Source: a virus. Taken from it: a stretch of 41,273 nt of DNA. Below the pieces are notes generated by a model that worked only from the letters and a program-made list of their open reading frames with translations, did not search any database and was not told where the DNA came from. Each line of letters starts with the position of its first letter. The stretch's first letter is position 1. The translations under genes and the position numbers were made by a program. Location: IMG/VR virus record IMGVR_UViG_3300035703_003413, positions 1 through 41,273 of that record; one strand, 5' to 3'. Positions 1 through 23,382 of the stretch are shown here, piece by piece.

Positions 1-466
1 TAGAAGCAGAATATGGATTACGAGGATTTACTAGTGCATTTTCGTCCCAAGCAGGTTCTGAATCTGTTTTTAACTGACCATAGACTTCATCAGTAGAAAT
101 ATAAAAGAATAATTTTGTATTGTTTTTAACTGCTGCATCAATGAGAGTTTGAGTTCCCAGGACGTTAGAATGTATAAATGGAGCTGCCGTTTGAATAGAG
201 TGATCTACGTGGGACTCGGCGGCAAAGTGAACAATCACATCAGGCTTTTCAATTTCAAAAATATTATCAATAATATTTTTATTAGCAATATCGGCAATGT
301 AGAAGCTATCCGATTTGCCGTTGCTGATATAAAAATTACTTTTGCTGTGAGGATAAAGAAGGTTATCAATAGATATAAATTGATGATTTTTTCCTCTTAA
401 GAAAGAGGATTTCCTAATAAAGTTTGCACCAATAAAGCCCGCCGCACCTGTAACCAAAACTTTCAT
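1..466 (-). CDS. rmlB: dTDP-glucose 4,6-dehydratase, 3' end cut by window edge
   Basis: This is an extended SDR enzyme that converts dTDP-glucose to dTDP-4-keto-6-deoxyglucose, the entry point to rhamnose and many deoxysugars. About 155 codons are open from the ATG at 466 to the left window edge. The protein starts MKVLVTGAAGFIG, with the NAD-binding GxxGxxG, and also shows HFAAESHVDHS, STDEVYG (catalytic Thr, Asp and Glu region) and NPYSAS, where the YxxxK motif begins. These are RmlB signatures. The start overlaps the stop of the upstream gmd-like gene by four bases (ATGA), which implies translational coupling. The C-terminal half lies outside the window, so intactness cannot be judged. A related NDP-glucose dehydratase is the only realistic alternative. 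Confidence 0.93.
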   Translation of the reverse strand, partial: MKVLVTGAAGFIGANFIRKSSFLRGKNHQFISIDNLLYPHSKSNFYISNGKSDSFYIADIANKNIIDNIFEIEKPDVIVHFAAESHVDHSIQTAAPFIHSNVLGTQTLIDAAVKNNTKLFFYISTDEVYGQLKTDSEPAWDENALVNPRNPYSAS

Positions 467-1464
467 AGAGTATATTTAAATCCGTTTTGAGCGAGAATTT
501 GTTCTTGTTGAGCAAGTTTTAAATCGTGATCGATCATCTCCTCGACCATTTGATCAAAAGAAATTTGAGGCTCCCAGCCTAAGGCATTTTTAATTTTTGT
601 ATAATCACCACAAAGATGGTCTACTTCGGAAGGTCTAAAGTGCTTGTCAGAAACTTCGACATAATCTTGATAATTTAAACCAAGCTTAGTAAAAACAATA
701 TCTGCAAATTCTTTTACTGAGCGGGATTTTCCTGAACAAAGGACATAATCATCTGGCTTATCTGCTTCGAGCATCATAATCTGACCAGAAGCAATATCTC
801 TGGCGTCGCACCAATCTCGTTTAGCTTCAAGATTTCCAAGGGTTAATTTGTCTTGAAGACCAAGTTTTATTCTAGTAGCTGCCCTTGTAATTTTGCGTGT
901 GACGAAATGCTCGGAACGTCTAACTCCCTCGTGGTTGAAACTAACAGAATTAACAGCAAACATATTATATGCCTCTCGATAGTTTACTACCGCCCAATAA
1001 GCACCTATCTTAGCTGCGCCATAAGGGGATCGTGGATGGAAGGGCGTAGATTCACTTTGCGGAGGAGGAGTAGATCCATATAACTCAGAGGTAGAACACT
1101 GTAAAAATCTAGTATCTTTACTGAATTTTCTAACGGCTTCAAGGCATCGAATAACTCCAGTTCCATCAATATCAAAAGTATATTCAGGGATATCAAAAGA
1201 AGCTTTTACATAAGATTGAGCGCCACAATTGATAAAATAATCAGGCTTTAAATCTGATACAGATGAACAAATTGAGCTATAATCGGACAAATCTCCATAA
1301 AACAATTTTAAATTAGGATGATTAAATATATGATCAATTCTCCTGGTGTTAAAATTAGAATTTCTTCTAATCATTCCATATACTTGATCTCCTTTTTCAA
1401 GGAATTTTTCAACCAATACTGACCCGGTTTGACCAGTAACACCAGTAATTAAAACTTTCTTCAT
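463..1464 (-). CDS. gmd: GDP-mannose 4,6-dehydratase
   Basis: This enzyme converts GDP-D-mannose to GDP-4-keto-6-deoxy-D-mannose, the precursor of GDP-L-fucose, GDP-D-rhamnose and GDP-perosamine. The 333-residue protein is close to the family's usual length. It shows ITGVTGQTGS near the N-terminus (nucleotide binding), STSELYG (catalytic Thr/Glu), PRSPYGAAK (YxxxK), then NHEGVRRSEHFVTRKI and LEAKRDW, both typical of Gmd rather than of GalE or RmlB, and RPSEVDHLCGD near the C-terminus. It lies between an epimerase and rmlB. Its likely use is to supply GDP-fucose for the GT11 fucosyltransferase further upstream. No clear GDP-fucose synthase is visible, so that step may come from a neighbouring SDR or from the host. 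Confidence 0.94.
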   Translation of the reverse strand: MKKVLITGVTGQTGSVLVEKFLEKGDQVYGMIRRNSNFNTRRIDHIFNHPNLKLFYGDLSDYSSICSSVSDLKPDYFINCGAQSYVKASFDIPEYTFDIDGTGVIRCLEAVRKFSKDTRFLQCSTSELYGSTPPPQSESTPFHPRSPYGAAKIGAYWAVVNYREAYNMFAVNSVSFNHEGVRRSEHFVTRKITRAATRIKLGLQDKLTLGNLEAKRDWCDARDIASGQIMMLEADKPDDYVLCSGKSRSVKEFADIVFTKLGLNYQDYVEVSDKHFRPSEVDHLCGDYTKIKNALGWEPQISFDQMVEEMIDHDLKLAQQEQILAQNGFKYTL

Positions 1465-1476
1465 ATCTTATCTTAC

Positions 1477-2385
1477 CTATATGTTTTTAAAATATTTTAC
1501 AGTCTTATTGACTCCGGAATCTATATCATGAGTAACATGCCAGCCATAAGATTGCAATAATTTAGATGACAGGCAATTTCTAAATAACTCTCCCTCAATT
1601 TTAGGAGCGTATACTATAGTGTCATAATTAAATTCTGAGCATATCTTGCTAACTAATTGATTAACAGTAGTTTCTTTGCCAGTGGAAACATTAAACGCCC
1701 CAGAAACTCGTAAAGATAGCTCCATGGCATTTACGACATCTTCTACATAGATATAGTCTCGAATTTGTTCGCCCGTTCCAAAAACAGTTAATGGCTTATT
1801 GTCTTTAATATTATTAATAAAAATAGAAATAACACCAGCTTCGCCTTTGCTATTTTGGCGAGGACCGTAGACATTGCTTAATCTTAAAATTGTATAATCT
1901 AGTCCATAAATTTCTTTATAGAATCTTATATATTGCTCACCTGTCCATTTAGAAATGCCATATGGAGAAGCAGGCTGGATTACAGAAGACTCTGTCTTAA
2001 TAAAATCTTCATCATCTCGATAAATAGCGCCGCCAGAAGAAGAGAAAATAATTTTTTTAACGCTATGCTTCACGCATTCGTTTAAAACATTTAAAGTTCC
2101 AATTGTATTTATTTCAGCGTCTAAAATTGGATCAGTAATAGACTTTCTGACATTAATTTGTGCAGCTAAATGATATACAACATCCGGTTTAACTTTTTCA
2201 AAAACATCTGAAACAGAATTTTTATCACAAATTTCTACTTGAAAAAATTTGCATCTAGATGATAAATTATTTAAATCTCCAGAAGAAAGATCGTCCATAA
2301 CAAAAACTTCATGATTAAATTCAAGAAGCTTATCTGACAAATGACTTCCAATAAAACCTGCTCCGCCTGTAATTAAAACTTTCAT
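1477..2385 (-). CDS. NAD-dependent sugar epimerase, GalE/UDP-GlcNAc-epimerase type
   Basis: This extended SDR of 302 residues starts MKVLITGGAGFIGSHL, a perfect Rossmann signature. It has HLAAQINVRKS, the SSSGGAIY catalytic serine block, SPYGISK (YxxxK), RLSNVYGPRQ and RDYIYVEDV. This order is typical of UDP-glucose or UDP-N-acetylglucosamine 4-epimerases and related NDP-sugar epimerases. The exact nucleotide sugar cannot be read from motifs. A UDP-Gal or UDP-GalNAc product would fit the GT6 domain encoded upstream, since GT6 enzymes use those donors; that link is inference. It is 12 bases upstream of gmd and 6 bases downstream of a small DUF4254-like gene. Confidence 0.85.
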   Translation of the reverse strand: MKVLITGGAGFIGSHLSDKLLEFNHEVFVMDDLSSGDLNNLSSRCKFFQVEICDKNSVSDVFEKVKPDVVYHLAAQINVRKSITDPILDAEINTIGTLNVLNECVKHSVKKIIFSSSGGAIYRDDEDFIKTESSVIQPASPYGISKWTGEQYIRFYKEIYGLDYTILRLSNVYGPRQNSKGEAGVISIFINNIKDNKPLTVFGTGEQIRDYIYVEDVVNAMELSLRVSGAFNVSTGKETTVNQLVSKICSEFNYDTIVYAPKIEGELFRNCLSSKLLQSYGWHVTHDIDSGVNKTVKYFKNI

Positions 2386-2391
2386 AAAAAA

Positions 2392-2646: not shown

Positions 2647-2647
2647 G

Positions 2648-3439
2648 TCATCCTTGTTTAAAACTTAATAATTCTTTTTGAGTATCAGACAGTAGGACAT
2701 CATATGTATAGTCATTTACAACATCTGCCATGATTAATTTTTGACCATCTAATAAGTGCCTAGATTCTTCTATAACAAAAGATTCAAAATTCATATTATT
2801 TAATTTATATAGATCTTGAACAAACTGCCTTATATTAAATAGTTTTCCAGACCCAACAACTGAATCTTGTTTTGCTAAAATACTTTGCTCTACAACAAAT
2901 TTAGCATGCACCATATCACGATAAAAATTTAAATTTCCAACATTAATTTTCTTTTTATGTAGAATAGAGTCAAAAATTTTCCCAAACAAAAAATATTTAC
3001 TTCGATACACAGAATTAAAATAAAAAGGGTGTATAAAAATTACCTTATTATACCTTTCATCGTGTTTTCTTAAATTTTTAATCTTATTAAAAAGTAATAA
3101 TTTTGAAATGGTATAATCATTATCTACTAACTTAAATTTGGGCTCTGTTTCAGAAGAAATCTTGCCCGAGCTAAGAGACCACATTTCACAACTTGTATAA
3201 CATACAATTTTTTTTGTATTTTCAATAAGGGAATTAATAATATCTAAAGTTATGAAATAATTAGGCGTAATATAATCTATGTTGTCTTCATAAATTCTCT
3301 GCTCAGCAAAAGTAATATAAGCAGAATCCCAAGAATTATTTTTCAAATAATTTAAATCAACATTTCTAGATGAGATTTTTATATATTCATTTGAAAAATA
3401 ATTGGACAACTGAGAAGTGTTTCCAATTACCAAATTCAT
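2648..3439 (-). CDS. divergent Gmd-like SDR (sugar nucleotide-modifying)
   Basis: This 263-residue protein is related to the gmd product at 463-1464. The segment INVGNLNFYRD aligns with LTLGNLEAKRD there, and GSGKLFNIRQF with CSGKSRSVKEF. A catalytic YTISK (YxxxK) is present, preceded by YTSCEMW in place of STSELYG. The N-terminal nucleotide-binding loop is reduced to GNTSQL instead of GxxGxxG, and the protein is about 70 residues shorter than Gmd. It could be a GDP-4-keto-6-deoxymannose reductase or epimerase (towards fucose or rhamnose), or a specialised dehydratase; the sequence does not decide. Its ATG overlaps the stop of the C-methyltransferase gene upstream (ATGA). Confidence 0.7.
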   Translation of the reverse strand: MNLVIGNTSQLSNYFSNEYIKISSRNVDLNYLKNNSWDSAYITFAEQRIYEDNIDYITPNYFITLDIINSLIENTKKIVCYTSCEMWSLSSGKISSETEPKFKLVDNDYTISKLLLFNKIKNLRKHDERYNKVIFIHPFYFNSVYRSKYFLFGKIFDSILHKKKINVGNLNFYRDMVHAKFVVEQSILAKQDSVVGSGKLFNIRQFVQDLYKLNNMNFESFVIEESRHLLDGQKLIMADVVNDYTYDVLLSDTQKELLSFKQG

Positions 3440-4656
3440 TTAATGCCTATTATCTCAAACTTTGGACAGGGCACTATAAATTTACCACCATTGGCTAAAA
3501 ATTCCATTTCTCTAGCACAAAACTCGCTAATAAAATGCCAAGGTAAAACTAATAAGTAGTCGGGCTTGGCTTTTCTCATTTCATCTTCAGAATAAATTGG
3601 AATATTTGTGCCAACGGTTTTTAATCCAAATTTATAAGTGCTTCTTTCTGCAATTCCATCAATTAAAGTGTAATCTAAATCAAAATATTGAAGCAATGTA
3701 TTTCCTTTAGTGGAAGCTCCATAGCCCCAAATTTTTTTACCTTTTGCTTTTTCAGCTTTGATAAAAGCTACAGTCTTTTCTTTTAATTCGTTGATCTTTC
3801 TAAAAAATTCTTTCCAAGTATCTTGAGAGTCTAAATTTAGCTTTTCTTCATAAGATAGCAAAGAATCAATTCTAAAATTAGAGACATCTCTATATGGCTG
3901 AGTTCCAAAAGTCTTTACATCTCCAACATCTTTCATTGCATACACTCTAAAAGACCCGCCATTAGTATCGTTTAATTGGCAGTCAACAATTTTAAATTTA
4001 TTTCTTTCAAATAGTTTTTTCAAATTAAATAAAGAATAATAATAAATATGTTCATGGCAAATATTATCAAATGCCATTTGCTCAATCATTAACGGCGTAT
4101 AACTTAATTGCAATACCCAAAGACCATTATCATCCAATACTTCATAAATATCTCTTATAAAGCTATCCGGATCGGATAGATCGTAAAACATAGCAATCGA
4201 TGTGACAACTTTTGGCTTTAATGATCCATACTTTGTAGATTTGAAATTTTCAGCAGTAAAGTAATCTTGAACAATTACATTCGCGTGTTTTTCAGATTCT
4301 TTCTTATAAGAATCATCTACAGGATCAATTCCAATTTTTATTAAATCACTAGGAACAAAACTTAGCAAAGTTCCATCATTACAAGCAATGTCTAACCAGA
4401 CATCGTTTTCTTTCATCTTTTTTACTTTAACAATAGAATCTACAATTGATTTTAATTCTTCTTTCATCGAAGAATTTGTACCAGAGCGATACCAATATTT
4501 ACCATACATAGTATCTAGTGGGGCACATTGGTCAAGTCTAACATTTCCATCATCTGTAAGCATCATTTTCATTTCAATTTTGCCTCCACGAGGAGACTGG
4601 TTAGCAGAAATGAAATCGGAAACATAAAGTTCACCTAAACTAAACAATTCTTTCAT
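3436..4656 (-). CDS. NDP-sugar C-methyltransferase (TylC3/NovU type)
   Basis: This is a SAM-dependent enzyme of the family that transfers a methyl group to carbon 3 of 4-keto-deoxysugars. The 406 residues contain a SAM motif WLDIACNDGT at about 87-96, the family signature CHEHIYYYS, then NGGSFRVY. The C-terminal Rossmann-like domain carries GYGASTKGNTLLQY, AERSTYKFG and LPWHF. The usual N-terminal zinc-binding domain is shortened: the CxxC that normally opens the family is missing and only one Cys (about 44) remains before YGKYWYRSGT. The substrate could be the 4-keto product of RmlB or Gmd, giving a branched sugar. It is followed by the Gmd-like SDR with an ATGA overlap. Confidence 0.88.
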   Translation of the reverse strand: MKELFSLGELYVSDFISANQSPRGGKIEMKMMLTDDGNVRLDQCAPLDTMYGKYWYRSGTNSSMKEELKSIVDSIVKVKKMKENDVWLDIACNDGTLLSFVPSDLIKIGIDPVDDSYKKESEKHANVIVQDYFTAENFKSTKYGSLKPKVVTSIAMFYDLSDPDSFIRDIYEVLDDNGLWVLQLSYTPLMIEQMAFDNICHEHIYYYSLFNLKKLFERNKFKIVDCQLNDTNGGSFRVYAMKDVGDVKTFGTQPYRDVSNFRIDSLLSYEEKLNLDSQDTWKEFFRKINELKEKTVAFIKAEKAKGKKIWGYGASTKGNTLLQYFDLDYTLIDGIAERSTYKFGLKTVGTNIPIYSEDEMRKAKPDYLLVLPWHFISEFCAREMEFLANGGKFIVPCPKFEIIGIK

Positions 4657-4686
4657 AAAAACCTTAAAATTGGTATTGATCCTGTA

Positions 4687-5568: not shown

Positions 5569-5569
5569 A

Positions 5570-6720: not shown

Positions 6721-6722
6721 GA

Positions 6723-7418: not shown

Positions 7419-7765
7419 ATTTCCTCTATTCTTTTAGCTTTATCATCAATAATTAAATCATATAAAGGTTTATGATCCCCCATTTTAAGATCGTGAAATT
7501 TAGCACCCCAGGCATTTAATTGATTTAAAGTAAGTTCTTTTAAATAATTTAATCTTTCAATATTGTTTATGTTTGAACTGCCACGAGCAGTCCAATATAT
7601 TATTGTCCAACCAGAGTTATATAAAGAATTAATTTTTTTTATATATTCATAATTTGGAATTGCTTTTTCATAAATTCTTTCAGATTCATAAAAACATATA
7701 GTCTCATCAATATCTACAAATGCAATCGGAACTTCATTATTTTTATTGTGAATTTCGTTTTTCAT
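7415..7765 (-). CDS. small HAD-family phosphatase
   Basis: This 116-residue protein shows the HAD fold motifs in order: AFVDIDETI with Asp18 (nucleophile) and Asp20 (acid/base), YWTARGSS (motif II Thr), a Lys within HKPLYDL, and IIDDKA (acidic metal site). It lacks a large cap domain. HAD enzymes of this size remove phosphate from small sugar or polyol phosphates. The gene starts inside the end of the nucleotidyltransferase gene (23-base overlap) and ends in an ATGA overlap with the methyltransferase. It therefore most likely belongs to the same precursor pathway as the nucleotidyltransferase and the kinase/aldolase. Confidence 0.82.
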   Translation of the reverse strand: MKNEIHNKNNEVPIAFVDIDETICFYESERIYEKAIPNYEYIKKINSLYNSGWTIIYWTARGSSNINNIERLNYLKELTLNQLNAWGAKFHDLKMGDHKPLYDLIIDDKAKRIEEI

Positions 7766-11021: not shown

Positions 11022-11956
11022 AAATTTTCCAAAACAGATAAAATTACATTAACTCTATTAACGTAAGTATGTTTTGCTTTAACTTCATTCATTAAATATT
11101 TAATTTCATCAATAATTTTTAAACTATTTTTCTTTTCAATAGATTTATAAAATAAATTGATAGGATTAGAATCATACACAAGCATATCATTAAATAAATG
11201 ATTTGTTAATTCATTATTCGTAATCCCCATATGTCCATAAGAAATATTTTTTAATATTCTACATTGAGGAGCGTATCCATGTTTAACTTGCCACGGTCCT
11301 TGAATTGCTGGGGCTAAAAATGATTGATTTACAATTTTTCTATTTTCCTCAAAAGAAACAGGGTTTTTCCATGGATCTATAATTCTGACATTTATATTGT
11401 TTTTTCTGCATTCATCAAAAAATAAATCTAATTCTATACTATTTTGATATTCAGTAACTCTATCGCCATAAGTGCCTATCCAAACACATTCCCTGTTATT
11501 AATTTCATTCTTTGCCTCATTGTCATTAATCTCTTCTGGCAATAAATCAGTTGCCCAAGGCTGATAGATTGTATCAGAAGAAATATAAGTATAATCATTG
11601 ATCTTTGTCAGCTCATCCTTGGTGGTAAATGTAGGATGAGTTCGTGGTATAAAATCAGAATTAATATTATTATGAAAAATTTGAATATTAATTTTTTTTA
11701 AATTAATATATTTATCTTTATTTCCGCTATGCAAGATGTATTTACAAGTATTATTTAAAGGTATTTTTGTATCTACTTGACCCTCTGTTAGAAATATAGA
11801 GTTATTAAAATTAAAACCACTAACGTCATCATTATCATCAAACCAATAAGTATCAAATCCTAAAGATTTAAAAGCCTTATAGAAACCATAATGAACATAA
11901 GAAGAAGTATGGGAGTGTAATTTATGCCCCCATATAATTATTTTTTTAGCAATCAA
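11018..11956 (-). CDS. putative GT-B glycosyltransferase, CgeB-like C-terminus
   Basis: This protein of about 312 residues opens with KKIIIWGHKLHSHTSSYVHY followed by a WFDDND segment, a plausible first Rossmann half (acceptor side). The C-terminal half has GYAPQCRILKNISYGHMGI and later LFNDMLVYD, which matches the theme of CgeB/GT4-like donor-binding halves, where a protein 'R-x-x-E/N, S/C-G' loop precedes a Thr-Asn and 'LF...vY'. I chose the TTG at 11956, which overlaps the upstream stop (TTGA) and has GGGAG five bases before it, over a TTG 21 bases earlier. It lies among transferase genes. Donor and acceptor are unknown. Confidence 0.58.
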   Translation of the reverse strand: MIAKKIIIWGHKLHSHTSSYVHYGFYKAFKSLGFDTYWFDDNDDVSGFNFNNSIFLTEGQVDTKIPLNNTCKYILHSGNKDKYINLKKINIQIFHNNINSDFIPRTHPTFTTKDELTKINDYTYISSDTIYQPWATDLLPEEINDNEAKNEINNRECVWIGTYGDRVTEYQNSIELDLFFDECRKNNINVRIIDPWKNPVSFEENRKIVNQSFLAPAIQGPWQVKHGYAPQCRILKNISYGHMGITNNELTNHLFNDMLVYDSNPINLFYKSIEKKNSLKIIDEIKYLMNEVKAKHTYVNRVNVILSVLENL

Positions 11957-12597
11957 ATTAACTCCCAATTTTCCCAAATAAATGGAAAATCATAAGTTAA
12001 TTTATGTGTTTTAGATAGGCTTTCTCTTATTTTATAATATCTAGAAAGATAATTTTCTCCAAGTCTATGAAATTGAACCTGTATATTTTTAAAATTTTTC
12101 TGTAAATTATTTTCAATTATACACTCTAGAACTTCATACTCACTGCCTTCTATATTAATTTTAATTAAATCAACAAATAAAATGCCAAGATCTTCCATTA
12201 CATTTTTAATGGATTTTATTTGCACTTCTATCTTTTCTTCTGAATCAATAAATAAAGAAGTAGATACTCCAAGAGCAGGTCCAAGATTAATCATTGCCGC
12301 ATAGTTACTACCGCCAACCCCATAATTATACAGGTGAATGTTTGAATTATTAACAATATTATTTTTTCCAATTTCAAATATGGTAGAAGTCGCTTCAAAT
12401 GCATAAATTTTGGGACTATTATATTTTTCACTTATAGCAAGAGACCATTCACAATGAAATGCCCCAAGATCAATGCATATACTTTCAGAATTTAAATCAT
12501 ATTCATATCTTAATTTTTCAAAAGCGCCATTGGTCCATTTATCAAGCTGCTCTTTATCTAAATTTAGATTAATTTTTGTATCAATTTCTTCGTCCAA
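11953..12597 (-). CDS. FkbM-family SAM-dependent methyltransferase
   Basis: This 214-residue methyltransferase has CIDLGAFHCEWSLAISEKY as the SAM loop and IYAFEATS as motif II. Its LIKINIEGSEYEVLE segment is the FkbM-family hallmark, and VQFHRLG matches the later strand. FkbM enzymes O-methylate sugars and other hydroxyls. The start is a TTG supported by a strong GGAGGG ribosome-binding site at 12602-12607. The N-terminal helix (about 30 residues) precedes the fold and is within normal range. It is the first gene after a 61-base gap downstream of the fucosyltransferase, so it may methylate a sugar in that capped glycan; this is inference. Confidence 0.85.
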   Translation of the reverse strand: MDEEIDTKINLNLDKEQLDKWTNGAFEKLRYEYDLNSESICIDLGAFHCEWSLAISEKYNSPKIYAFEATSTIFEIGKNNIVNNSNIHLYNYGVGGSNYAAMINLGPALGVSTSLFIDSEEKIEVQIKSIKNVMEDLGILFVDLIKINIEGSEYEVLECIIENNLQKNFKNIQVQFHRLGENYLSRYYKIRESLSKTHKLTYDFPFIWENWELI

Positions 12598-12601
12598 GGA
12601 G

Positions 12602-12607
12602 CCCTCC
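12602..12607 (-). promoter_or_regulatory. strong ribosome-binding site deciding a TTG start
   Basis: On the minus strand GGAGGG lies four bases before the TTG at 12597. Most genes in this cassette have weak or no visible Shine-Dalgarno and rely on overlaps; here the gene follows a 61-base gap and has a near-ideal site, which supports both the TTG start and independent re-initiation. Confidence 0.75.
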
Positions 12608-12658
12608 AGTTAATCATTACGAGTTATCAGATCTTTATCTTTTTCTCATATTTTATAT

Positions 12659-13375
12659 TTATATCTTAGTCCAGTTTTCCGGAAGCAAGTCACCGGTATC
12701 ATGTGCTAACTTAGGACCAAACCATTTTTTTGGAGCTATAATTTTTTTACCAAAATTTGTATTTAAATAAGCTCCCCACCAAGAGAATGAAGAATTAGCA
12801 ATAATTACATTGTCACATTTTTTAGACATTATTGCCAAATCTTCATATGGAGAAGAATTTTCTGAAAATATAAATTGATTTCCAGTAAAATTGCTCTTAC
12901 ACCATGCGATGTCATCAGAAAATATAATATATCGATCAGATTTAATTATATCCATCGCTTGGCGATAATAATTCATATCAAGCTGATGATAATGGTCAGG
13001 AAGGTTTAAATAATCCCCTCGACGAACATGAATGGCACATAAATCAGACTCGGGCTCTACGTTCATACTTGGAGTTAAAGAGCTTAATATAAAATATTCA
13101 TACTCTTTAAAATATTTATAGCTTTGAAAATATCCACGCAAATCTAAATTAGGAGAATAAGGTATCTCTTTGTAATGAAAGAATGGCTCTTGATATGTTT
13201 TAGAAAATAATAAATTGTTGTAATAGCAGTCTTTTAAATTACAATAGTTAGAATATTCCCAGTGAGGAAAGCCATAAGAATCATTATTTTTTAAAGCCAA
13301 TCCAATTGTAGTAGCTACTTCAAATAATTGATTCCCCAGCCTCCCCCATTGACCTAATTGACTATAAGTAATCAC
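12659..13375 (-). CDS. alpha-1,2-fucosyltransferase (GT11)
   Basis: This enzyme transfers L-fucose from GDP-fucose, usually to the 2-hydroxyl of a terminal galactose. The 238-residue protein has the three GT11 hallmarks: GRLGNQLFE at 11-19, HVRRGDYL at 116-123 and SSFSWWGAYLN at 195-205. It is shorter than many bacterial GT11 enzymes (about 280-300), but the motif spacing is intact. The start is a GTG at 13375, overlapping the stop of the GT2-GT6 fusion gene (GTGA), so the two are probably translated together. The gmd product at the end of the cassette would feed its donor. The linkage is a family-based inference. Confidence 0.93.
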   Translation of the reverse strand: MITYSQLGQWGRLGNQLFEVATTIGLALKNNDSYGFPHWEYSNYCNLKDCYYNNLLFSKTYQEPFFHYKEIPYSPNLDLRGYFQSYKYFKEYEYFILSSLTPSMNVEPESDLCAIHVRRGDYLNLPDHYHQLDMNYYRQAMDIIKSDRYIIFSDDIAWCKSNFTGNQFIFSENSSPYEDLAIMSKKCDNVIIANSSFSWWGAYLNTNFGKKIIAPKKWFGPKLAHDTGDLLPENWTKI

Positions 13376-16095
13376 CTTACTGCCTTGTGATTTTTTTCTA
13401 GCAACATAATTTTTGGAGAAAATTTATGAGGTCTCCACTTTGCAATATAAGAAGAGTAATTTTCAGGATAATGATAGCTTGGAGTTAAAACTATTTCTGG
13501 CTCATGATCTAAGAAATATCTATTCAAAGCAGTTTCATCATGCCAAGTAGGTATAATATTATTTTGCAAATCTCTTTCAATCATTTCATAACACCATCTA
13601 GACAATTCTAGATAACTCTTAGCAGATCCGCCACTAAACCCGCCTCCGAAATAATATTTATATTTTCTAGAATCTGTATAAAAAACAGAATTTTTATTCT
13701 CTTCAAATGTGCCGCCGCCATTGAAGTAACCACAATGACGCACTCCCACTAATTCTCCCAAAGTCTCTGCGGAAACATGATCAACAAACTTGCAATCAAC
13801 ATCCACATAATACAAATAATCCATTTTAGATAATTCTTCAGAGTTATTTGTAAAATGTTTAAACCTATCCATGCTTGCATATGGAAAGCCTCTGTGCTCT
13901 ATGTTGATAACCTTATAATTTCTAGAAGTATTTAAAGACACTTCTTTATCGGTAAAAATAAAATAAGTGACTTCAAAACTAGGATCTTTAAAGTAAAATT
14001 TATCAGCAGATTCAATTAATTGAGAAATAAATTGATCATACTTACCAGTCGCGATGACTAATAAACCTATTTTATTTTTAGTATTTTTAGCTCTGCTTTC
14101 TAGTACATGAGCGGGCTCTTTGGCGAGAAGAGGATATTTATGCATTCCTCGAACGAGCCTGTCTAATTTTTGCTGTAGTTTTTGATTTACCTTGTGATCA
14201 TTAATAGGATTAACTAAATTATATATATAAAGATACTCACTTATAAATTTAGAGCGATGACCAGACATTTCTAGCATTGGAAACATCATAGCCATATCCC
14301 ATGTCATAGCCATGAAATTACCCTCATAATAAAAATCTTCTTTTTTAATTTGCTTAAATAGCCATGCGTAAAATGTTCTTAAGTGAGATGAGCACCAAGA
14401 ATATTGTCTATAAGTTTTAGTTTTAATTACGTGTTCAGGTATCTGTTGAGCAATTCCTCTGCCGCCATCTGGGTAGTTTTGATATTGCCCATATGTCATC
14501 CATACATCGCCAGAATAATGAATATTTAAAGTGTTTAAGACTTCGGGTCCAGCTAACCAATCATCGCCATCTAATGTCAAGACAATTTCATCATCATCGC
14601 AAGAATGAATCATATTATAAAGATTCTCTAAAGCACCTTTACGAACTTCATTTCTAACAATAGTGGCTTTATTTTTATTGGGATGATCCTCAACGGCTTT
14701 TAAAACGGCATCAAAAGTATTATCAGGAGAACAATCATCCGTAAACAAAACTCTAAAATTTGAATAGTTTTGGTTTAAAGCAGAGAGAATATTTTTCTCT
14801 GCCCATTCTTGATTTTTATAACTTGGAATTACAATAACAAATTTGTTCTTACCCTTTAAATTTGTGGATAAAGTATGAACGGGTAGAGTATATTCAACTT
14901 TTTGATTTGTTTTTAGAGCTTCAACATCTGCGAAAGAATCAAGCCTAACGTTATCCAAAGCTTCAACAACAATAATTCTAGATATTAAAATTTCACTATT
15001 GCCATCTTCAAAGACACCAACGTTTAATTTATAAGAATTTCCAAAATCAGGCTCTTCGCCTGAGCCAATATTTATACTTCTATCCTCTATATTAATTCCA
15101 AATAAAAGATTAACATATTGATCAGGAGTTTTTGAATTAGAAATACAAGCTTTTAATCTTCCATTCCCGCCAAATTTTTTACCATTAAAAATAATAGTAT
15201 ATTTTTTATTAGGCTGAATTGAAGAAATGGGTATTGAAAATATTGCCCCAGGCTTAACTGAAACGTAATTTCTTCCATTGCTAGCAATAAATTTAATGTT
15301 TCTGTTTTGCTCTTTAAAATTATTTTTTATAAATCCATTAAATTTATCGGAATCATAAACTATATTTATAGCTGGATGAGAATTTGTCATAAATTCTTTC
15401 TTTACATCAAAGGCTTGATTTAAGCCACCTATTCCATTATTGACGGTTACTTTATCATAATCTGCTACGTCATTCGGCGGAAGAGGGTTAGGAGGCTCTC
15501 TACTAATGAACAATTCTTTTTTATTTAAAGAATCACTATTTAATATATCCGATGCCAAATTAATATTAGTGACTTTACATTTATAGCTAAAAACAATTTT
15601 ATTATTTTGAATTGAATAAGCATTTGCGGGCTCTGTTTCAAGATCAATTATAAAACTACTGGGCTCAATGAATGCGCCTTCATTAGCAAACAAAGTATCT
15701 TTAACTAAAGATAGCCCTTTATAATTATGAAATTTTCTAACTATTGACTTCCAGCGAATTGACATATCTTCCTCATAACTTGCATTTATTTCTATGCCTA
15801 AAATTGCCACTTCTCCAAGAGAATCTTCTGTTCTTGATATGCGAATACTTTTCTCTTTAGAAAGAAGAGTTTTAACCTCAAACTGCTTAGATGAAACGGT
15901 ATAATTTTCACCGTTAATTTTTATCTTACCGTTTCCAGATACTCTTTTAAAATAAATATCTATGTAAGAAAAATCCTCATCAATAAGTAGAGATATTTTT
16001 CCAAACTTAGGCTCTAGTACATAGGTGCCATCATATTTGCAGCTAATGCTAGAAGAGCATAAAGCCTTCAGGTTGTCAAAGTAATATTCTTTCAT
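13372..16095 (-). CDS. three-part glycosyltransferase: unknown N-terminus, GT2, GT6
   Basis: This is a 907-residue protein. Residues 1 to about 410 are a beta-rich region that I do not recognise, possibly carbohydrate-binding. Residues about 417-640 are a GT2 domain: FVIVIPSYKNQEW, TDDCSPDNT and LDGDDWL (DGDD at 509-512). Residues about 674-890 are a GT6 domain, the ABO/alpha-1,3-galactosyltransferase family: YFIFTDKE, YASMDRFKHF, DYLYYVDVDCKF with DVD at 765-767, FGGGFSGGSA, and TWHDETALNRY with Glu854. GT6 enzymes add Gal or GalNAc in alpha-1,3 linkage to galactose. It would make two consecutive linkages from one chain. The next gene is the GT11, in a GTGA overlap; the start forms TGATG with the previous stop. 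Confidence 0.9.
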   Translation of the reverse strand: MKEYYFDNLKALCSSSISCKYDGTYVLEPKFGKISLLIDEDFSYIDIYFKRVSGNGKIKINGENYTVSSKQFEVKTLLSKEKSIRISRTEDSLGEVAILGIEINASYEEDMSIRWKSIVRKFHNYKGLSLVKDTLFANEGAFIEPSSFIIDLETEPANAYSIQNNKIVFSYKCKVTNINLASDILNSDSLNKKELFISREPPNPLPPNDVADYDKVTVNNGIGGLNQAFDVKKEFMTNSHPAINIVYDSDKFNGFIKNNFKEQNRNIKFIASNGRNYVSVKPGAIFSIPISSIQPNKKYTIIFNGKKFGGNGRLKACISNSKTPDQYVNLLFGINIEDRSINIGSGEEPDFGNSYKLNVGVFEDGNSEILISRIIVVEALDNVRLDSFADVEALKTNQKVEYTLPVHTLSTNLKGKNKFVIVIPSYKNQEWAEKNILSALNQNYSNFRVLFTDDCSPDNTFDAVLKAVEDHPNKNKATIVRNEVRKGALENLYNMIHSCDDDEIVLTLDGDDWLAGPEVLNTLNIHYSGDVWMTYGQYQNYPDGGRGIAQQIPEHVIKTKTYRQYSWCSSHLRTFYAWLFKQIKKEDFYYEGNFMAMTWDMAMMFPMLEMSGHRSKFISEYLYIYNLVNPINDHKVNQKLQQKLDRLVRGMHKYPLLAKEPAHVLESRAKNTKNKIGLLVIATGKYDQFISQLIESADKFYFKDPSFEVTYFIFTDKEVSLNTSRNYKVINIEHRGFPYASMDRFKHFTNNSEELSKMDYLYYVDVDCKFVDHVSAETLGELVGVRHCGYFNGGGTFEENKNSVFYTDSRKYKYYFGGGFSGGSAKSYLELSRWCYEMIERDLQNNIIPTWHDETALNRYFLDHEPEIVLTPSYHYPENYSSYIAKWRPHKFSPKIMLLEKNHKAVR

Positions 16096-16874
16096 CAGAA
16101 AGCTATTACATTATCAAATTTATATTTATCTTTATTTAAAGAATAAAATATAGGCTTTTGGTTGCTGTAATAAAGCTTACAATTATTATAGAATTTTTGA
16201 ACAAATTTATTATGTTCTTCGGTTTTAAATTGTCGGTAAGTGCTTTTATCACCACCATCTTCTCCTAAGTGCGTCCCTTCATCTTCTAAATACCCCAATT
16301 TAAATCCAGCAACCCTAGCTCTAAATCCATAATCACTATCCTCTAAACCATATTTACCGTAATCAAAATCATTAAAGAATCCAATCATTTTATGAACTTT
16401 TTTGGAGAAAACCATGCAAGCGGTTCCAAGATTTCCCTGCTGCTTGTGTTGAACTTTATGAGAGCCAACATCTACCAAAGGATATTTTACGTTTTCAAAA
16501 TTAACGCCTAACATACCATATTGAGAATTAAAAGTCATAATATCAATGCATTTTTGTAGCCAATTCTCGGGCAACAAAACATCATTATCCAGCGTTGCAT
16601 ACCAAGAAGAATCACCGGCAAGACCTAGAGTTTGATTTCTACCAACTGCAATTCCTAAATTTTCAGAATTGCATAAAAGCTTTGCGCCTAAATAATATTC
16701 ATTTTTTTCTCTGCTTGACAAAAACTCTTTTAAATAATCCACAGTTCCATCTTGAGAAGCATTGTCTACTAAAATTAATTCAAATGGAGATTTTGTAACT
16801 TCAAAGATATTATTTAAAGTTTCTTTAGTTAAATTCAATCTATTATAAGTTACCATTAATAATTTAGCGCTCAT
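16095..16874 (-). CDS. GT2-family glycosyltransferase
   Basis: This 259-residue GT-A enzyme has KLLMVTYNRLNLTKETL at the start, LILVDNASQDGT, NSENLGIAVGRN and TLDNDVLLPENW, where DND is the metal- and nucleotide-binding DxD. LEDSDYGFRARVAG supplies the later acidic motif with the catalytic base. No membrane segments are visible, so it is cytoplasmic. It forms TGATG with the next gene, the GT2-GT6 fusion, and overlaps the gene before it by 11 bases. Donor and acceptor cannot be read. Confidence 0.88.
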   Translation of the reverse strand: MSAKLLMVTYNRLNLTKETLNNIFEVTKSPFELILVDNASQDGTVDYLKEFLSSREKNEYYLGAKLLCNSENLGIAVGRNQTLGLAGDSSWYATLDNDVLLPENWLQKCIDIMTFNSQYGMLGVNFENVKYPLVDVGSHKVQHKQQGNLGTACMVFSKKVHKMIGFFNDFDYGKYGLEDSDYGFRARVAGFKLGYLEDEGTHLGEDGGDKSTYRQFKTEEHNKFVQKFYNNCKLYYSNQKPIFYSLNKDKYKFDNVIAF

Positions 16875-17841: not shown

Positions 17842-18647
17842 ATTACACAGTGCTCTTTATTTTTTAAATATAAATCATGGTCAATTTTATATAATGAACC
17901 ATATTGAGCTTTAAAATGTTTAACATTTGGCTCCATCATAAGCTTATTAACAGGATTCTTTTTTAAAGACACAGACTCTCCATGATCTATATTGGTACTC
18001 CCGCAATAAATTACTTTTTTACCAGATTTTACTACTTTTAAATTATAAGCAATATCTTCAAATGCCCAATTAAACTTCTCGTCTAACATGCCCATTCTAA
18101 AAAATAAATCACAAGGAGTAAGTAAACATGCTCCAGTTACTGCTTGAAAATATCTGTTTCTGCAGGCGTCAGAGTCTTCTTCTTCATTGGCTCGATAATG
18201 CCAGGGCATATTACCATACCTAGAAGAAAATATTACTCCTCCATGCTGAAGCTTATTTGTATTAGTGTAATTTAATTTTGCACCAACAATTCCCGGATCA
18301 TGCTTGATATAAACGTCCAACATATTTTTTAAAGATTCAGAGTCTTTAAAAAATATATCATTATTTAATAGTAAAAATAAATCTCTTTCCTGTAAGTTAA
18401 CTTTAGCCATGTTAGCTAAAGAATTAACGCCTTGAGAAAAATTGTCTCTATTATGATCTTTTTTAAGAATTGAAACTTTATTACCTAAAGTTTCTAAATA
18501 AGAAACAGAATCATCTTTACATCCGTTACTCCGAACATACCACTGAGCATCAATTCCTAAATTTTTTAAATTGTGAAATAGCCCTGGAACTAATCTTTGT
18601 AAAAGAAAAGAACCGTTCCAAGTTAAAGTTAAAATGTGAAGCTTCAT
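17838..18647 (-). CDS. GT2-family glycosyltransferase
   Basis: This protein of about 269 residues has MKLHILTLTWNGSFLLQRL at the start and RSNGCKDDSVSYL, where Asn-Gly replaces the usual Asp-Asn. It continues with DNFSQGVNSLANMA, LLNNDIFF as the DxD-equivalent (NND), LQHGGV and AFEDIAYNLKVVKSG. This is the dTDP-rhamnosyltransferase-like GT2 layout. I chose the ATG at 18647, which overlaps the upstream stop as ATGA and has GGAAAG about nine bases before it, over a TTG at 18662. It would add a single sugar to a cytoplasmic lipid- or protein-linked acceptor; the sugar is unknown. Confidence 0.82.
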   Translation of the reverse strand: MKLHILTLTWNGSFLLQRLVPGLFHNLKNLGIDAQWYVRSNGCKDDSVSYLETLGNKVSILKKDHNRDNFSQGVNSLANMAKVNLQERDLFLLLNNDIFFKDSESLKNMLDVYIKHDPGIVGAKLNYTNTNKLQHGGVIFSSRYGNMPWHYRANEEEDSDACRNRYFQAVTGACLLTPCDLFFRMGMLDEKFNWAFEDIAYNLKVVKSGKKVIYCGSTNIDHGESVSLKKNPVNKLMMEPNVKHFKAQYGSLYKIDHDLYLKNKEHCVI

Positions 18648-19348
18648 ATCTTTTCTTTCCAATACTTAGAAAAAGTATTATAAGATTTCTTATACATCTC
18701 AGATAATCCTATTTTAGAAGAAGTCATGCGTCCAAAATGATGTAATGGAGTCTTAACAACTTCCATAGTAATTCCAAGCTGCCTAGCCTTCCAGCTAAGA
18801 TGAACATCTTCAAAATATGCAAAGTATTTCTTAGACCAAATAACACCTTCTTCTTTTGCTATTTGATTGAATGTTTTTCTAGATCCAAGAACCGACCATC
18901 CACTTAAATATTCAAATTTATCTTGCAACACATGGGGCTCTGATGATTCACGAACAAAATTAAAATTATTATTTAATAATCCAGCCTGTGAAGAAATTAA
19001 TTTATCTCCCGCATCTTTAGTTAAATCATCTAACCATTTTGATTTATTTTTTAATACAGCAACGTCATTATTAAGAAATAATAAATATTCTCCCTCAGAT
19101 TTTTCGACTCCAATATTATTGGCAGCTCCAAATCCTAAATTTTCATTTATTCTAATATACTTAAAATCAGGCTTGTCATCGCTTTTATTTTCCATAAAGG
19201 ATTTTATAAAATCCGATGTGCCATCAGTACTGTTATTGTCTACAATAATGACTTCGTGATCTGATGATAAATTCATTAAATCATTAACACATTTTTGTGT
19301 AAATGAAACTTGATTAAATACAGGTATAATAATGCTAGATACCGTCAT
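18644..19348 (-). CDS. GT2-family glycosyltransferase (rhamnosyltransferase-like)
   Basis: This 234-residue protein shows SSIIIPVFNQVSFTQKCV, VIIVDNNSTDGTSDF, NENLGFGAANNIGV, LFLNNDVAV (DxD-equivalent NND) and YFEDVHLSWKARQLG. All core GT2 motifs of the rhamnosyltransferase-like group are present at normal spacing. The short C-terminus carries HHFGRMTSSK. The ATG overlaps the stop of the GT4 gene (ATGA), and its own stop overlaps the next GT2 start. If RmlB here feeds dTDP-rhamnose through host RmlC and RmlD, this or the next GT2 would be a candidate user; that is inference. Confidence 0.87.
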   Translation of the reverse strand: MTVSSIIIPVFNQVSFTQKCVNDLMNLSSDHEVIIVDNNSTDGTSDFIKSFMENKSDDKPDFKYIRINENLGFGAANNIGVEKSEGEYLLFLNNDVAVLKNKSKWLDDLTKDAGDKLISSQAGLLNNNFNFVRESSEPHVLQDKFEYLSGWSVLGSRKTFNQIAKEEGVIWSKKYFAYFEDVHLSWKARQLGITMEVVKTPLHHFGRMTSSKIGLSEMYKKSYNTFSKYWKEKI

Positions 19349-20439
19349 GCAGTTTCTTTCATCAATAAATTCAAGGCATTATCCCAAGTATAATTTTGAA
19401 CAGTTTCGCTCATAGATGATGACTTTGATTGAACTAAAGAATCATAAGAGCGATAGACTTCTCTTAAAGATTCTACAGCATGGTCTTGATTTGCTTCAAA
19501 ATAAGAATTGTAAACAGAAGCTTCCCAATATTGGGCTTCCATGGGCGCTCGAACTTCTTTGCCAGAAATTAAAATGCTATTATTATCATTGCAAAAATCC
19601 AACTGACCGCCATGGCGTGGAACTACAACTAATTTATTAGCAGCAAACCCCTCTAATGCAGGCATGAAAAAACATTCAGCGTGAGTCAAAGAATAAACAA
19701 CATCACAAGCGTTAAACAGCGAAACCATATTAGGAACATAACTTGTGATTAATTCAATCTCGGGATGATTTTTATATTTTTCATTTAAACGATGTATTAT
19801 CTTTTTAACATCAACTTCGAATGGTAATTTTTTATCTAAAGATGCCGTGGGAACTTTGGCAACCAAACACACGTCGTCTTTGTTAGTAAATGCCTTATAG
19901 AATGCCTCTATTGTTTCGGGTATAGCTTTTCTGATGTGCGGCTGACCTAATGGAATTAAAAATTTTAATTTCTTTTTAGTTTTTAAAGGATATTTATCTT
20001 TATATGAAAAATGTTCTAAATCAATTCCATGCGGAACCACTGTTAAATGAGACTCTGGAATTTTATTTTTAACAAAAATATCTTTAGCAAATTGGCTTGG
20101 TGCCAAAATTTTATCACAATATTTATAATATTTAATAAACTCTTTTGGAATTATAGGAAATTCATAACACCAAATTCCGAATCTATTTTTATTTCCACCG
20201 GCTAAATAATGTGGAAAATTAATCATAGCGGTATATGATATTTGCATATCATATTCTCCGCTACCAATTGTTTTAATGAATGGTTTTAAGTCTTCTGGAG
20301 TATGCTCTGGTCGATTTCCATCTGTAGAAACAAATTCTACATCGTGACCCAATTTAAGAAGAGATCTTCCTAAATTCTGGTTAACATATGCCCAGCTATG
20401 AGACTTGCCAAATAAAAAACCTTGAACCTTGACTCGCAT
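19345..20439 (-). CDS. GT4-family glycosyltransferase
   Basis: This 364-residue GT-B enzyme is the first gene of the carbohydrate cassette in transcription order. It shows KSHSWAYVNQNLGRSLL at the N-terminus, YCDKILAPSQFAKDIF and VVPHGIDLEHF (the GT4 donor-domain entry). KFLIPLGQPHIRKAI is followed by DVVYSLTHAECFFMPALEGF, which holds the catalytic E-x7-E region (ECFFMPALE), and then NKLVVVPRHGGQLDF. It is a retaining transferase, probably acting early in glycan assembly. It lies only 21 bases downstream of the 973-residue tail protein gene, so the cassette may be read through from the tail operon. Confidence 0.9.
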   Translation of the reverse strand: MRVKVQGFLFGKSHSWAYVNQNLGRSLLKLGHDVEFVSTDGNRPEHTPEDLKPFIKTIGSGEYDMQISYTAMINFPHYLAGGNKNRFGIWCYEFPIIPKEFIKYYKYCDKILAPSQFAKDIFVKNKIPESHLTVVPHGIDLEHFSYKDKYPLKTKKKLKFLIPLGQPHIRKAIPETIEAFYKAFTNKDDVCLVAKVPTASLDKKLPFEVDVKKIIHRLNEKYKNHPEIELITSYVPNMVSLFNACDVVYSLTHAECFFMPALEGFAANKLVVVPRHGGQLDFCNDNNSILISGKEVRAPMEAQYWEASVYNSYFEANQDHAVESLREVYRSYDSLVQSKSSSMSETVQNYTWDNALNLLMKETA

Positions 20440-20460: not shown

Positions 20461-23382
20461 TTAAGAAAGCAAACCCTGAAGTACATCAGAAGTGATTACT
20501 AAGTGCTGATTATTCCAACCTGCCTTCTTCAAGTATACTGTAATAGTAATTTTTGTCACTAATGATAAGTATACATTATCTTCTGCCAAGTCTTGAGCGT
20601 TCAAAGTCAAAATTCCAGTAGTATGATCGATATATGCACCAATTGTTGGATCCTCTATGACAACATATCCATCTAAATCGGCATCATACCCATCTAAATT
20701 CTTATAGAAAGATTGAATTGCTACATTGAATTTAATTTTATTTAATGCAATATCCTCAATCTTAACAAAAGAACAATCCGAATATTTCATGGCAGGATAC
20801 CCTGCAGCAGTTTTGCCACCACCAACATCTACAACAAACTTTTCATAAATATTAACGCTGGACTCGTTTAAAGGTATTTGAGGTAATCTTAATTCAATTG
20901 TTGAAATTTCAACATCTTGTCTAAAGTGAGTCCCGTCAGGATTTAATATTTGACCATGACCAATCAAAAGATTGTTAGGAACAAAGAAATCATTTCTACC
21001 CACCTCTACAGCAGGCGCTTCTGCAAACCTTTCTTCGCAAACAGTATTTGCCACAGGACTGCAAGAAAATAGCTCAGGATTAGTTAAATAAGTAAATGCT
21101 GCTGGAACTAATCTAGCCTCAGATGAAAGGCTTATCATCCAGTCTTGCCAGAATGGCTTAGGTACAATCTGATAAGTTACACCAGCAAATGGAACAGTTG
21201 TAAATGCAGAATCTATTTCTAGACTTGAAGGAATATAATATCCATCATAAACTAGCTCTGCATAACTCAAAGAAGATGCTGGGACCAAGTTTAATGAGGA
21301 GCCGTTTGCACGAATGTATCCATCGCCACAGTCAAAATATCCGTCATATCTTCCAACTAAAGGCTGAACCTCTAAACAGATATGAGTGAATGATGTGCCA
21401 ACTGGAAAAGAATTAATATTCTTATTTACATATAAAGATAGCAAATCGGCATCATTAGATGTAATATATCCGTCTCCATCCAAATCAGCTCGTAATAGAT
21501 CAAGCGTATCAATATAGCCATCAACAATTTTTTGCTGTGTTGAAGAGAAGTATAAACTTTCTCCAATTAAAGTAGATATTAAGGTAATGTCTGCATCGTC
21601 AATTATCCCATCACCATTGACATCGCCGTAGCCATCAGTACATAAAGTGGCTTTAACTACTTTGTATTTGTTGCTAGATAGCGTATTAGGAACAAGTGTA
21701 GAGCCGATTAAATTATTAGTAATTAAATCGGGATCGGGATTAATTATACAAAAGGTGCTGCCCTTAGCCAGACCAATTATATTTTGAGACTTAAATAATA
21801 GTGGATTCTTTTTAGGATTTAAGTCTTTAACAGCTCCAATAACAAGAGGATCTGAGGTGTTCTGAAGAGTTTCAAGCTCTGTTTCGGAGATTAAGCTAAA
21901 GCTAGGAACAAATTGTTTTCTAGAAAATGTATCATTGCCAGTTCTTTCGTCCTGCTCAATTACGCTGGCTTGAGTTACGGCTTGAATAATACCAATATTT
22001 AAAATATTAAATCCGGTATCATTAAGTGAATTGTGTCTTTCTTGATTGTCAATAGTTGCCCCTGACAATTCATCAATAGTAGTTTTTGGAATAATAATTC
22101 CTTGACCAGCATCATATCCTTGACCATCTGCTATCTTAACGGCATCCGTCCATACTTGATACCAAAGGTCTTCTTCAGATACATCTACCCAGCCAGTACC
22201 GCTATACAAAATCAAACGTGAATCTTCGGTTCTATCATTACCAGAACCAAATAATATAGACCCTACAGATGCATCTCCAGTTCTTTTAACTGTAAACGCA
22301 TAATAATTTCCTATCTTTAATCCGTTTGGTGCGCCAATTTTAGAAGAAGAAAAAACAATATCAACAGGTTGGAGTGTATCTGTAAGTACATAACCTATGT
22401 CTCTTAAATCTGCTTGATCAAAAGCAAATTGAACAAGTGGCTCAGACTGGGGATCAAAATCAATTGTCAAAGAGGGAATGATATCCGTAGGGCAAGAAAC
22501 AGTTGTTTGCAAAGCATAAACGCTAACAACTAAAGAGCCTGACCAATCATATTTATTTTCTTCTGGAACTAATTCGCTTCCAGAAGCACCCATTAATAAA
22601 GTGATTTTTTGAACGTTATCAGTTTTTGCAAGAAATTTTTGACCAACATGAGAAGATACGTCATTAGTGTTTAATGTGCGATTTGGTCTTCCGGTAGTAT
22701 TTACATTTAAAGAGTCAACATTGTATTGAGGTCCAATTGCCGTTTGCAATGTTGCTTGAAGTGTTGAAGTAGGATTGGCAATTTTAAAATCTCTCCAAAA
22801 TAAATCAGGCTCCACGTCCTGAGAAATCATCATGGCATCACGAGATACTTGGAACGCCCTAGCCTCTCTAACAACTAATCTTCCGCCTAAAGTTCTAGAG
22901 CAGTTATTGTTGCCTTTAAAATCATTAGTTAAAATAGCTAAAATTCTTTTATAATGATTTGCGGTGACTTGAGTTTCATTTTTATAAAAATAAAAACGAT
23001 CAATTTGCAAAGTATCATCAAACGATAAGCCGATAATAGCTACTTTTGTAGAGAATCTGCCAACCGCAGATGATCCAGTAAGCTCTATTTCTAATTGATT
23101 TCCTAAATTAATGTCAGTTGGCTGCACATGAGGAGACAATCCCGTGCCATCAAAATTACCTGTGCTTAATAAGCTTGCTTGAACAGAAGTTAACACGTCA
23201 GAATCAAAAAGAATTACTGGAACTGGGTTTTCTAATAATACACCAGATCCAAAATGATTATTAATGATTGAGGCTTGTACTTTGTTATTATAGTTTTGCT
23301 CAGTGTCTAAATCTTCTTTAGATACACGCTGGGCATCCCTAAATAAATTTTGTAAAGCGGAAACTTCTATTCTTTTAGTCAT
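20461..23382 (-). CDS. large tail or fibre protein with dockerin-like domain
   Basis: This is a 973-residue protein in the last position of the tail operon. It is beta-rich, with no signal peptide. Residues about 580-650 carry a duplicated calcium-loop module: GDVNGDGIIDDADI (loop 587-598, ligands D587, N589, D591, D595, D598) and DLDGDGYITSNDAD (loop 633-644, ligands D633, D635, D637, T641, D644). This is the type I dockerin pattern. The tripeptide DGY recurs many times (for example LDGYDADLDGYVV near the C-terminus). By position after J-like and I-like genes it would be a fibre, adhesin or fibre-attachment protein (P2 H position). Overall family is unknown. Confidence 0.72.
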   Translation of the reverse strand: MTKRIEVSALQNLFRDAQRVSKEDLDTEQNYNNKVQASIINNHFGSGVLLENPVPVILFDSDVLTSVQASLLSTGNFDGTGLSPHVQPTDINLGNQLEIELTGSSAVGRFSTKVAIIGLSFDDTLQIDRFYFYKNETQVTANHYKRILAILTNDFKGNNNCSRTLGGRLVVREARAFQVSRDAMMISQDVEPDLFWRDFKIANPTSTLQATLQTAIGPQYNVDSLNVNTTGRPNRTLNTNDVSSHVGQKFLAKTDNVQKITLLMGASGSELVPEENKYDWSGSLVVSVYALQTTVSCPTDIIPSLTIDFDPQSEPLVQFAFDQADLRDIGYVLTDTLQPVDIVFSSSKIGAPNGLKIGNYYAFTVKRTGDASVGSILFGSGNDRTEDSRLILYSGTGWVDVSEEDLWYQVWTDAVKIADGQGYDAGQGIIIPKTTIDELSGATIDNQERHNSLNDTGFNILNIGIIQAVTQASVIEQDERTGNDTFSRKQFVPSFSLISETELETLQNTSDPLVIGAVKDLNPKKNPLLFKSQNIIGLAKGSTFCIINPDPDLITNNLIGSTLVPNTLSSNKYKVVKATLCTDGYGDVNGDGIIDDADITLISTLIGESLYFSSTQQKIVDGYIDTLDLLRADLDGDGYITSNDADLLSLYVNKNINSFPVGTSFTHICLEVQPLVGRYDGYFDCGDGYIRANGSSLNLVPASSLSYAELVYDGYYIPSSLEIDSAFTTVPFAGVTYQIVPKPFWQDWMISLSSEARLVPAAFTYLTNPELFSCSPVANTVCEERFAEAPAVEVGRNDFFVPNNLLIGHGQILNPDGTHFRQDVEISTIELRLPQIPLNESSVNIYEKFVVDVGGGKTAAGYPAMKYSDCSFVKIEDIALNKIKFNVAIQSFYKNLDGYDADLDGYVVIEDPTIGAYIDHTTGILTLNAQDLAEDNVYLSLVTKITITVYLKKAGWNNQHLVITSDVLQGLLS
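21578..21626 (-). other. first dockerin-like calcium loop
   Basis: This encodes the D-x-N-x-D-G-x-x-D-x-x-D loop at residues 587-598 of the 973-residue protein, followed by the ITLISTLIG helix. Together with the second loop 46 residues later it gives the two-loop arrangement of a type I dockerin. Coordinates are approximate within a few bases. Confidence 0.7.

Follow-up and report, generated by a model that had tools for sequence, protein, structure and literature searches.

The overlapping genes for a GT6 glycosyltransferase domain and a GT11 fucosyltransferase, found in a virus record of 41,273 bases (here called the window), form a real capping module, occurring phage-wide, and their carrier is a large tailed phage. 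Dozens of phages and bacteria show the same pairing, which makes it very probable that the enzymes cooperate on a single branched sugar; confidence that they serve the same glycan is high. That this product is an ABO-like branch stands at about an even chance.

The two genes lie on the minus strand, where an ATG-started ORF of 907 aa (13372-16095) is followed by a GTG-started one of 238 aa. They share the four bases GTGA at the junction (...gcagtaaggTGA / GTGattact...), and the overlap reported by the initial annotation is confirmed by both ORFs and junction sequence. The same annotation had described the first gene as encoding a GT6 domain: this is present, as the PF03414 match at residues 663-907, but it is the C-terminal part of a larger protein, which also contains a GT2 domain. 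Features of the region are listed in Table 1.

Table 1. Features of the sugar cassette and its surroundings, in window positions
Feature	Position	Strand	Basis
RmlB-like dTDP-glucose 4,6-dehydratase, cut by record end	2..466	-	TIGR01181, 140 bits over 153 aa
GDP-mannose 4,6-dehydratase (Gmd)	463..1464	-	TIGR01472, 394 bits, just below cut-off 415
GalE-like nucleotide-sugar 4-epimerase	1477..2385	-	closest solved relatives: UDP-glucose 4-epimerases (4zrm, 263 bits)
Sugar C-methyltransferase	3436..4656	-	PF08484, 153 bits
FkbM-type methyltransferase adjoining GT11	11953..12597	-	PF05050, 43.6 bits
GT11-type fucosyltransferase, 238 aa, GTG start	12659..13375	-	PF01531; phrog_2644; alignment; AF2; Foldseek
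GTGA overlap	13372..13375	-	GT11 start codon and GT2-GT6 stop codon
GT6 domain, residues about 672-907	13375..14082	-	PF03414; NF041524; PDB sequence matches; Foldseek; motifs DVD, HCGYF, GGG tripeptide, WHDE, KNHKAVR tail
GT2 domain, residues about 418-600	14296..14844	-	PF00535, 60.8 bits at 421-581; mixed-confidence model
N-terminal region, two predicted beta-sandwich domains (residues about 17-180, 243-380)	14956..16047	-	AF2 secondary structure
GT2 glycosyltransferase directly upstream of GT2-GT6 gene	16095..16874	-	PF00535, 68.5 bits; synteny in L009-L016
GT2 and GT4-like genes opening the cassette	18644..20439	-	GT2 18644-19348, GT4-like 19345-20439; order kept in L009, L010, L014
973-aa protein with dockerin domain, between tail genes and cassette	20461..23382	-	PF00404

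The Pfam scores of both enzymes are far above chance: 140 bits for PF03414, with a cut-off of 25, and 98 bits for PF01531, with a cut-off of 23.9. In PDB sequence comparisons the GT6 domain aligns along its length with BoGT6a of Bacteroides ovatus, the closest of the PDB sequences at 37% identity across 203 aligned residues, and with the human ABO transferase (about 39% identity to GTA/GTB over 144 aligned residues). Counterparts of GTA H233, T245, W300 and E303 are present, the domain retains its catalytic Glu as well as the Lys/His/Arg set near the C terminus, and the tail, KNHKAVR, resembles the KNHQAVR of GTA. The AlphaFold2 model of the full 907-aa protein is of mixed quality (mean pLDDT 72.2), its GT6 part being mostly above 90. 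When the GT6 part was compared by Foldseek, human GTA ranked first (E 2e-23), while BoGT6a gave a TM of 0.88 by target length: the predicted domain is a GT-A fold, superposing on both. The N-terminal region of the protein matched no Pfam entry and could be assigned to no family; its beta-sandwich domains are modelled with pLDDT mostly between 70 and 90.

The 238-aa protein matches phrog_2644 and, aligned with 12 relatives, displays the HxRRGD signature (HVRRGDY) and the conserved C-terminal motifs (NSSFSWWGA). No relative was found among PDB sequences, and fold comparison was therefore used: the AlphaFold2 model (mean pLDDT 96.6) best matches POFUT1, FUT8 and NodZ, all GDP-fucose fucosyltransferases; no GT11 crystal structure came up among these PDB fold matches. 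According to the initial annotation, the pathway would be refuted if the active site of GT6 or of GT11 were missing from the predicted folds. Both folds keep their active sites, with DVD and catalytic Glu in a GTA/BoGT6a-like fold for GT6 and the active-site motifs in a GDP-fucose-enzyme fold for GT11, and the proposal accordingly survives this comparison.

The order GT2, GT2-GT6, GT11 is kept in the eight closest phage contigs, except at contig ends. Among cultured cyanophages, GT11 and GT6 are side by side in Bellamy and DSL-LC02 and two genes apart in P-SSM2 and ACG-2014f. At least 552 GT6-encoding stretches were retrieved from IMG/VR by profile search. Of 81 viral GT6 loci, 67 have a GT11 gene at a distance of up to about 8 kb, and in 52 it is no more than 3 kb away; strand is shared in 66, the GT11 gene may be upstream or downstream, and gene order varies; for GT6 loci from bacterial genomes, the count is 54 out of 80. 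As a control, phage loci lacking GT6 were considered: GT11 occurs at 7 of 64 epimerase loci and at none of 14 gmd loci. The contrast, 83% at GT6 loci and 11% in the control, may partly reflect cassette richness, because control loci are poorer in recognised glycosyltransferases (10/80, as against 29/81 for GT6 loci). Within the epimerase set, GT11 accompanies 8 of the 16 loci with GT6, more often than the 7 of 64 without it (p=0.0013), and after merging near-copies at 70% identity it is present in 30 of 38 GT6 groups. The reverse association is weak, GT6 being found at 9 of 80 GT11 loci: such a one-sided link would follow from a GT6 that depends on prior fucosylation of its acceptor and a GT11 that can act without GT6. 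Two bacterial proteins, moreover, fuse the two domains, in either order (GT6-GT11 in L140, GT11-GT6 in L175). Recurrent co-occurrence and fusion thus uphold the functional link proposed between the two enzymes; co-occurrence is evidence of a shared pathway, not of its product.

Metal use and donor preference of the GT6 domain may be predicted from its motifs. D-x-D is tied to metal dependence (PMC3961637), and the DVD of the phage domain implies that a metal ion should be needed. In human enzymes, Gly235, Leu266 and Gly268 characterize GTA, and Ser235, Met266 and Ala268 GTB, Gly at 235 and 268 being the A-type state (PMC4202792). Human AT displays A activity with AlaGlyGly or LeuGlyGly, B activity with MetGlyAla, and both with GlyGlyAla; GlyGlyGly is absent from the human AT constructs of that study (PMC6351642). 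In the phage domain the tripeptide at GTA positions 266-268 is Gly-Gly-Gly, and Gly also occupies the 235 position: positions 235 and 268 are thus A-like, while Gly at 266 corresponds to neither the A nor the B human enzyme. Taken together with the tripeptide activities in human AT, the A-type state of 235 and 268 would make GalNAc a likelier donor than Gal. Counting against a fucosylated acceptor, some GT6 enzymes, such as alpha-3GT and the Forssman synthase, have no such requirement (PMC6351642).

Viral GT6 sequences are uniform in their catalytic motifs: D-x-D and HDE are present in 88 out of 88, and AlaGlyGly, an A-type donor-pocket tripeptide, in 72. Bellamy, DSL-LC02 and ACG-2014f feature GlnGlyCys instead, a tripeptide that none of the ABO enzymes in PMC6351642 has. 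A tree built from 61 GT6 sequences unites the bacterial N-x-N enzymes (96/88), and places the domain of the 907-aa protein in a well supported group of six large-phage sequences (100/100). The tree does not fix the place of human GTA, which sits on a long branch (joining it to the N-x-N bacteria gave p=0.448 in the AU test); a claim of transfer for the origin of the vertebrate enzyme was consequently dropped. A cyanobacterial host was likewise not assigned: eight large-phage records, including near relatives of the window, contain no photosystem reaction-centre gene (psbA-type), a marker that carries no weight for the window itself, as it is a fragment.

The pair belongs to a same-strand run of sugar genes, extending from about 20439 down to the record end: a GT4-like gene, GT2, two family-less genes, GT2, GT2-GT6, GT11, the FkbM methyltransferase, further genes, the C-methyltransferase, the GalE-like epimerase, Gmd and the cut RmlB-like gene. 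A promoter scan of positions 1-20000 gave no signal above shuffled expectation. The enzyme families, their folds and catalytic residues, the arrangement of the genes and the repeated pairing are observations, to which we add the order of action, the linkages, the sugars and the target by inference, as follows. GT6 and GT11 would act last in an operon for glycan assembly, whose GT2 and GT4 enzymes would build the inner chain; with GDP-fucose as donor, GT11 would attach L-fucose to a residue resembling galactose, and GT6 would then add, in a metal-dependent reaction, alpha-GalNAc (less likely Gal) to the fucosylated residue, giving a branched ABO-type cap. The glycan would probably be placed on a phage structural protein in the cytoplasm. 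The case for this scheme as a whole, with an ABO-type cap carried by a phage protein, is evenly balanced.

The size of the product had been proposed to be that of a blood-group-like trisaccharide, which is weakened by the presence of the C-methyltransferase, of the FkbM methyltransferase and of at least 4 more glycosyltransferase domains: such additional transferases and methyltransferases indicate a whole glycan larger than the ABO trisaccharide. For the supply of precursors, Gmd and a GalE-like epimerase are both there, in the same operon, and the epimerase is a candidate source of UDP-Gal or UDP-GalNAc. The GDP-fucose route is covered only as far as Gmd, since the gene following gmd, passed over in the initial annotation, is RmlB-like and a GDP-fucose synthase (Fcl) was not found either in the 41-kb record or in G001, the 301-kb nearest relative, both of which may be fragments; a profile search for the synthase in the 301-kb relative returned SDR relatives only. 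Gene 2648-3439, considered as a candidate Fcl, was rejected, as its match to Gmd reaches only 25.8 bits and it has no solid PDB relative. The RmlB-like gene also stands beyond gmd in the nearest relative (L009/L176), and is complete in L009 (19315-20271); in L009/L176 the cassette is followed by genes for a TubZ-like tubulin, UvsW and DnaB. The phage may use a host Fcl, it may have an Fcl gene outside the sequenced fragment, or its Gmd may belong to the route of a different sugar.

The last option leads to a competing explanation, namely that the two enzymes do serve one glycan, but that its motif is not ABO, because GT6 has a different acceptor, GT11 a different linkage, or Gmd feeds a different 6-deoxyhexose. 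It is a possible reading, put forward tentatively. It would fit with the position of gmd, adjoining RmlB and not Fcl, with the two methyltransferases, with the GlnGlyCys tripeptide of the three cyanophages and with the existence of a GT11 enzyme, HhFT2, which forms alpha-1,3 links (PMC4202792). Against it, acceptor-site residues are conserved, and several related cassettes (G006, DSL-LC02, P-SSM2, ACG-2014f, AG-345-F15) have an Fcl-like gene next to gmd.

Genomic position suggests where the glycan may be carried. The sugar run has genes of the baseplate and tail (Baseplate_J, sheath initiator) upstream of it; in the search for relatives of the tail proteins, a baseplate protein weakly matched Bacillus phage G and 37689-39719 matched nothing. 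The 973-aa dockerin-domain protein stays beside the cassette in L009, L010 and L014 and is a candidate target of glycosylation, suggested by this position. Among the cassette genes scanned, no Pfam match was obtained for a lipid-carrier initiating transferase, flippase, polymerase or ligase. Location of the glycan on the virion is proposed because the cassette is beside tail genes and lipid-linked export families are unmatched. The same evidence bears on a rather unlikely alternative, in which the pair acts on host surface glycans by LPS-type remodelling during infection, for example blocking other phages: LPS/cell-wall genes of T4-like cyanophages have been discussed in these terms (PMC9602691), the same pair is used for the O-antigen of E. 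coli O86 (PMC4202792), and host machinery could make up for the unmatched families; but the place of the cassette after the tail genes is kept in relatives. Attachment of the glycans to modified DNA bases, as in DNA-hypermodifying phages, is very improbable: phage glycosyltransferases acting on DNA are known (reference 46 of PMC12619734), but the 41-kb record contains no base-modification genes near the cassette, and the pair recurs, also in fused form, in bacteria, where capsule or O-antigen is its natural role. A chance pairing of unrelated sugar genes is just as improbable, phage sugar islands being rich in glycosyltransferases of many families, but co-occurrence rates, varying gene order and fusion proteins all pointing the other way.

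Of the known systems, E. coli O86 is comparable in gene content, GT6 (WbnI) and GT11 (WbwK) being encoded in one cluster which produces an ABO antigen, blood group B (PMC4202792, PMC4982269). It differs in being bacterial, chemically proven and based on transfer of Gal, while the phage GT6 is a D-x-D enzyme, fused to GT2, and its ABO-like product is a prediction. With the human pair, GTA/GTB (GT6) and FUT1/FUT2 (GT11), the phage shares the GT6 fold, DVD, the catalytic Glu and the C-terminal KNH..VR tail; the phage GT6 differs in GlyGlyGly as opposed to LeuGlyGly/MetGlyAla, in having no Golgi anchor region and in the GT2 fusion. BoGT6a, which transfers GalNAc to 2'-fucosyl-lactose (PMC3961637), has in common with it the YPE acceptor-side motif and the AGG/GGG tripeptide class, but is NAN and metal-independent, while the phage enzyme is DVD. 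The LPS-type islands of P-SSM2, Bellamy, DSL-LC02 and ACG-2014f, with their neighbouring GT6 and GT11, contain Gmd, Fcl and epimerases in several cases, but their GT6 proteins (231-244 aa) are not fused to GT2 and are only 30-39% identical to the GT6 domain of the 907-aa protein.

In 2014, GT6 enzymes were on record for two cyanophages and for bacteria of 36 species; the family is present in vertebrates, bacteria and phages, but not in invertebrates, plants and fungi (PMC3961637). GT6 in cyanophages had already been described, as had the ABO pathway of E. coli O86 with both enzymes. The recurrent pairing pattern is an addition of the present analysis; the open-licence library searched yielded no publication describing the two enzymes together in phages. 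A broader scheme may be advanced with reserve, as a possibility short of an even chance: tailed phages of several lineages would share a GT6+GT11 module, mostly with D-x-D GT6, for an A-type (GalNAc) branch decorating the virion, and in the present lineage GT6 would have been joined to GT2, two steps being combined in one protein.

Should the product prove ABO-like, antigens of this type would have in phages a major source besides animals and bacteria. GT6 is common in phages (more than 550 stretches in IMG/VR). The near-constant GT11 partner provides a simple rule for the products of GT6-bearing phage sugar islands, testable in the cultured cyanophages that have the pair. These findings also touch on how GT6 came to be shared by vertebrates, bacteria and phages.

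The motif D-x-D is found in each of the viral GT6 sequences examined (88 out of 88), while N-x-N is carried by most of the bacterial GT6 sequences of the set. In the tree of 61 GT6 sequences, the bacterial N-x-N enzymes form a single group; human GTA, the A-type ABO enzyme, takes no settled position among the GT6 sequences.

In the 907-aa GT2-GT6 protein, the GT2 domain is preceded by two predicted beta-sandwich domains (residues 17–380), both without any family match. These domains are reduced or missing in several relatives.

Within the sugar operon, one gene features a phosphoribulokinase/uridine-kinase-like domain, fused to a class II aldolase domain. In the nearest relative of the window (L176), a TubZ-like phage tubulin gene is located immediately past the sugar cassette.

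Coordinates of the described features
Feature	Location	Context
GT2-GT6 protein, 907 aa	window 13372-16095 (-)	
Kinase-like/aldolase gene, 500 aa	window 8576-10078	
Protein with dockerin domain, 973 aa	window 20461-23382	between baseplate genes and sugar cassette
Protein with Laminin_G_3 lectin-like domain, 2223 aa	window 23405-30076	between baseplate genes and sugar cassette
TubZ-like gene	L176:10553-11872	
GT6/GT11 protein	L140:7998-9626	Planctomycetota MAG
GT6/GT11 protein	L175:3870-5363	Gastranaerophilales MAG

In two bacterial loci, L140 and L175, the GT6 and GT11 domains are joined in one protein, in opposite orders. Two giant-virus proteins from BFVD, named GT6 and GT2-like (A0A5J6VM96 and A0A3G5AIA8), match the AlphaFold2 model of the window's GT11 protein over part of their own length: these structural matches suggest that further GT6/GT11 or GT2/GT11 fusions may be present in viruses of eukaryotes.
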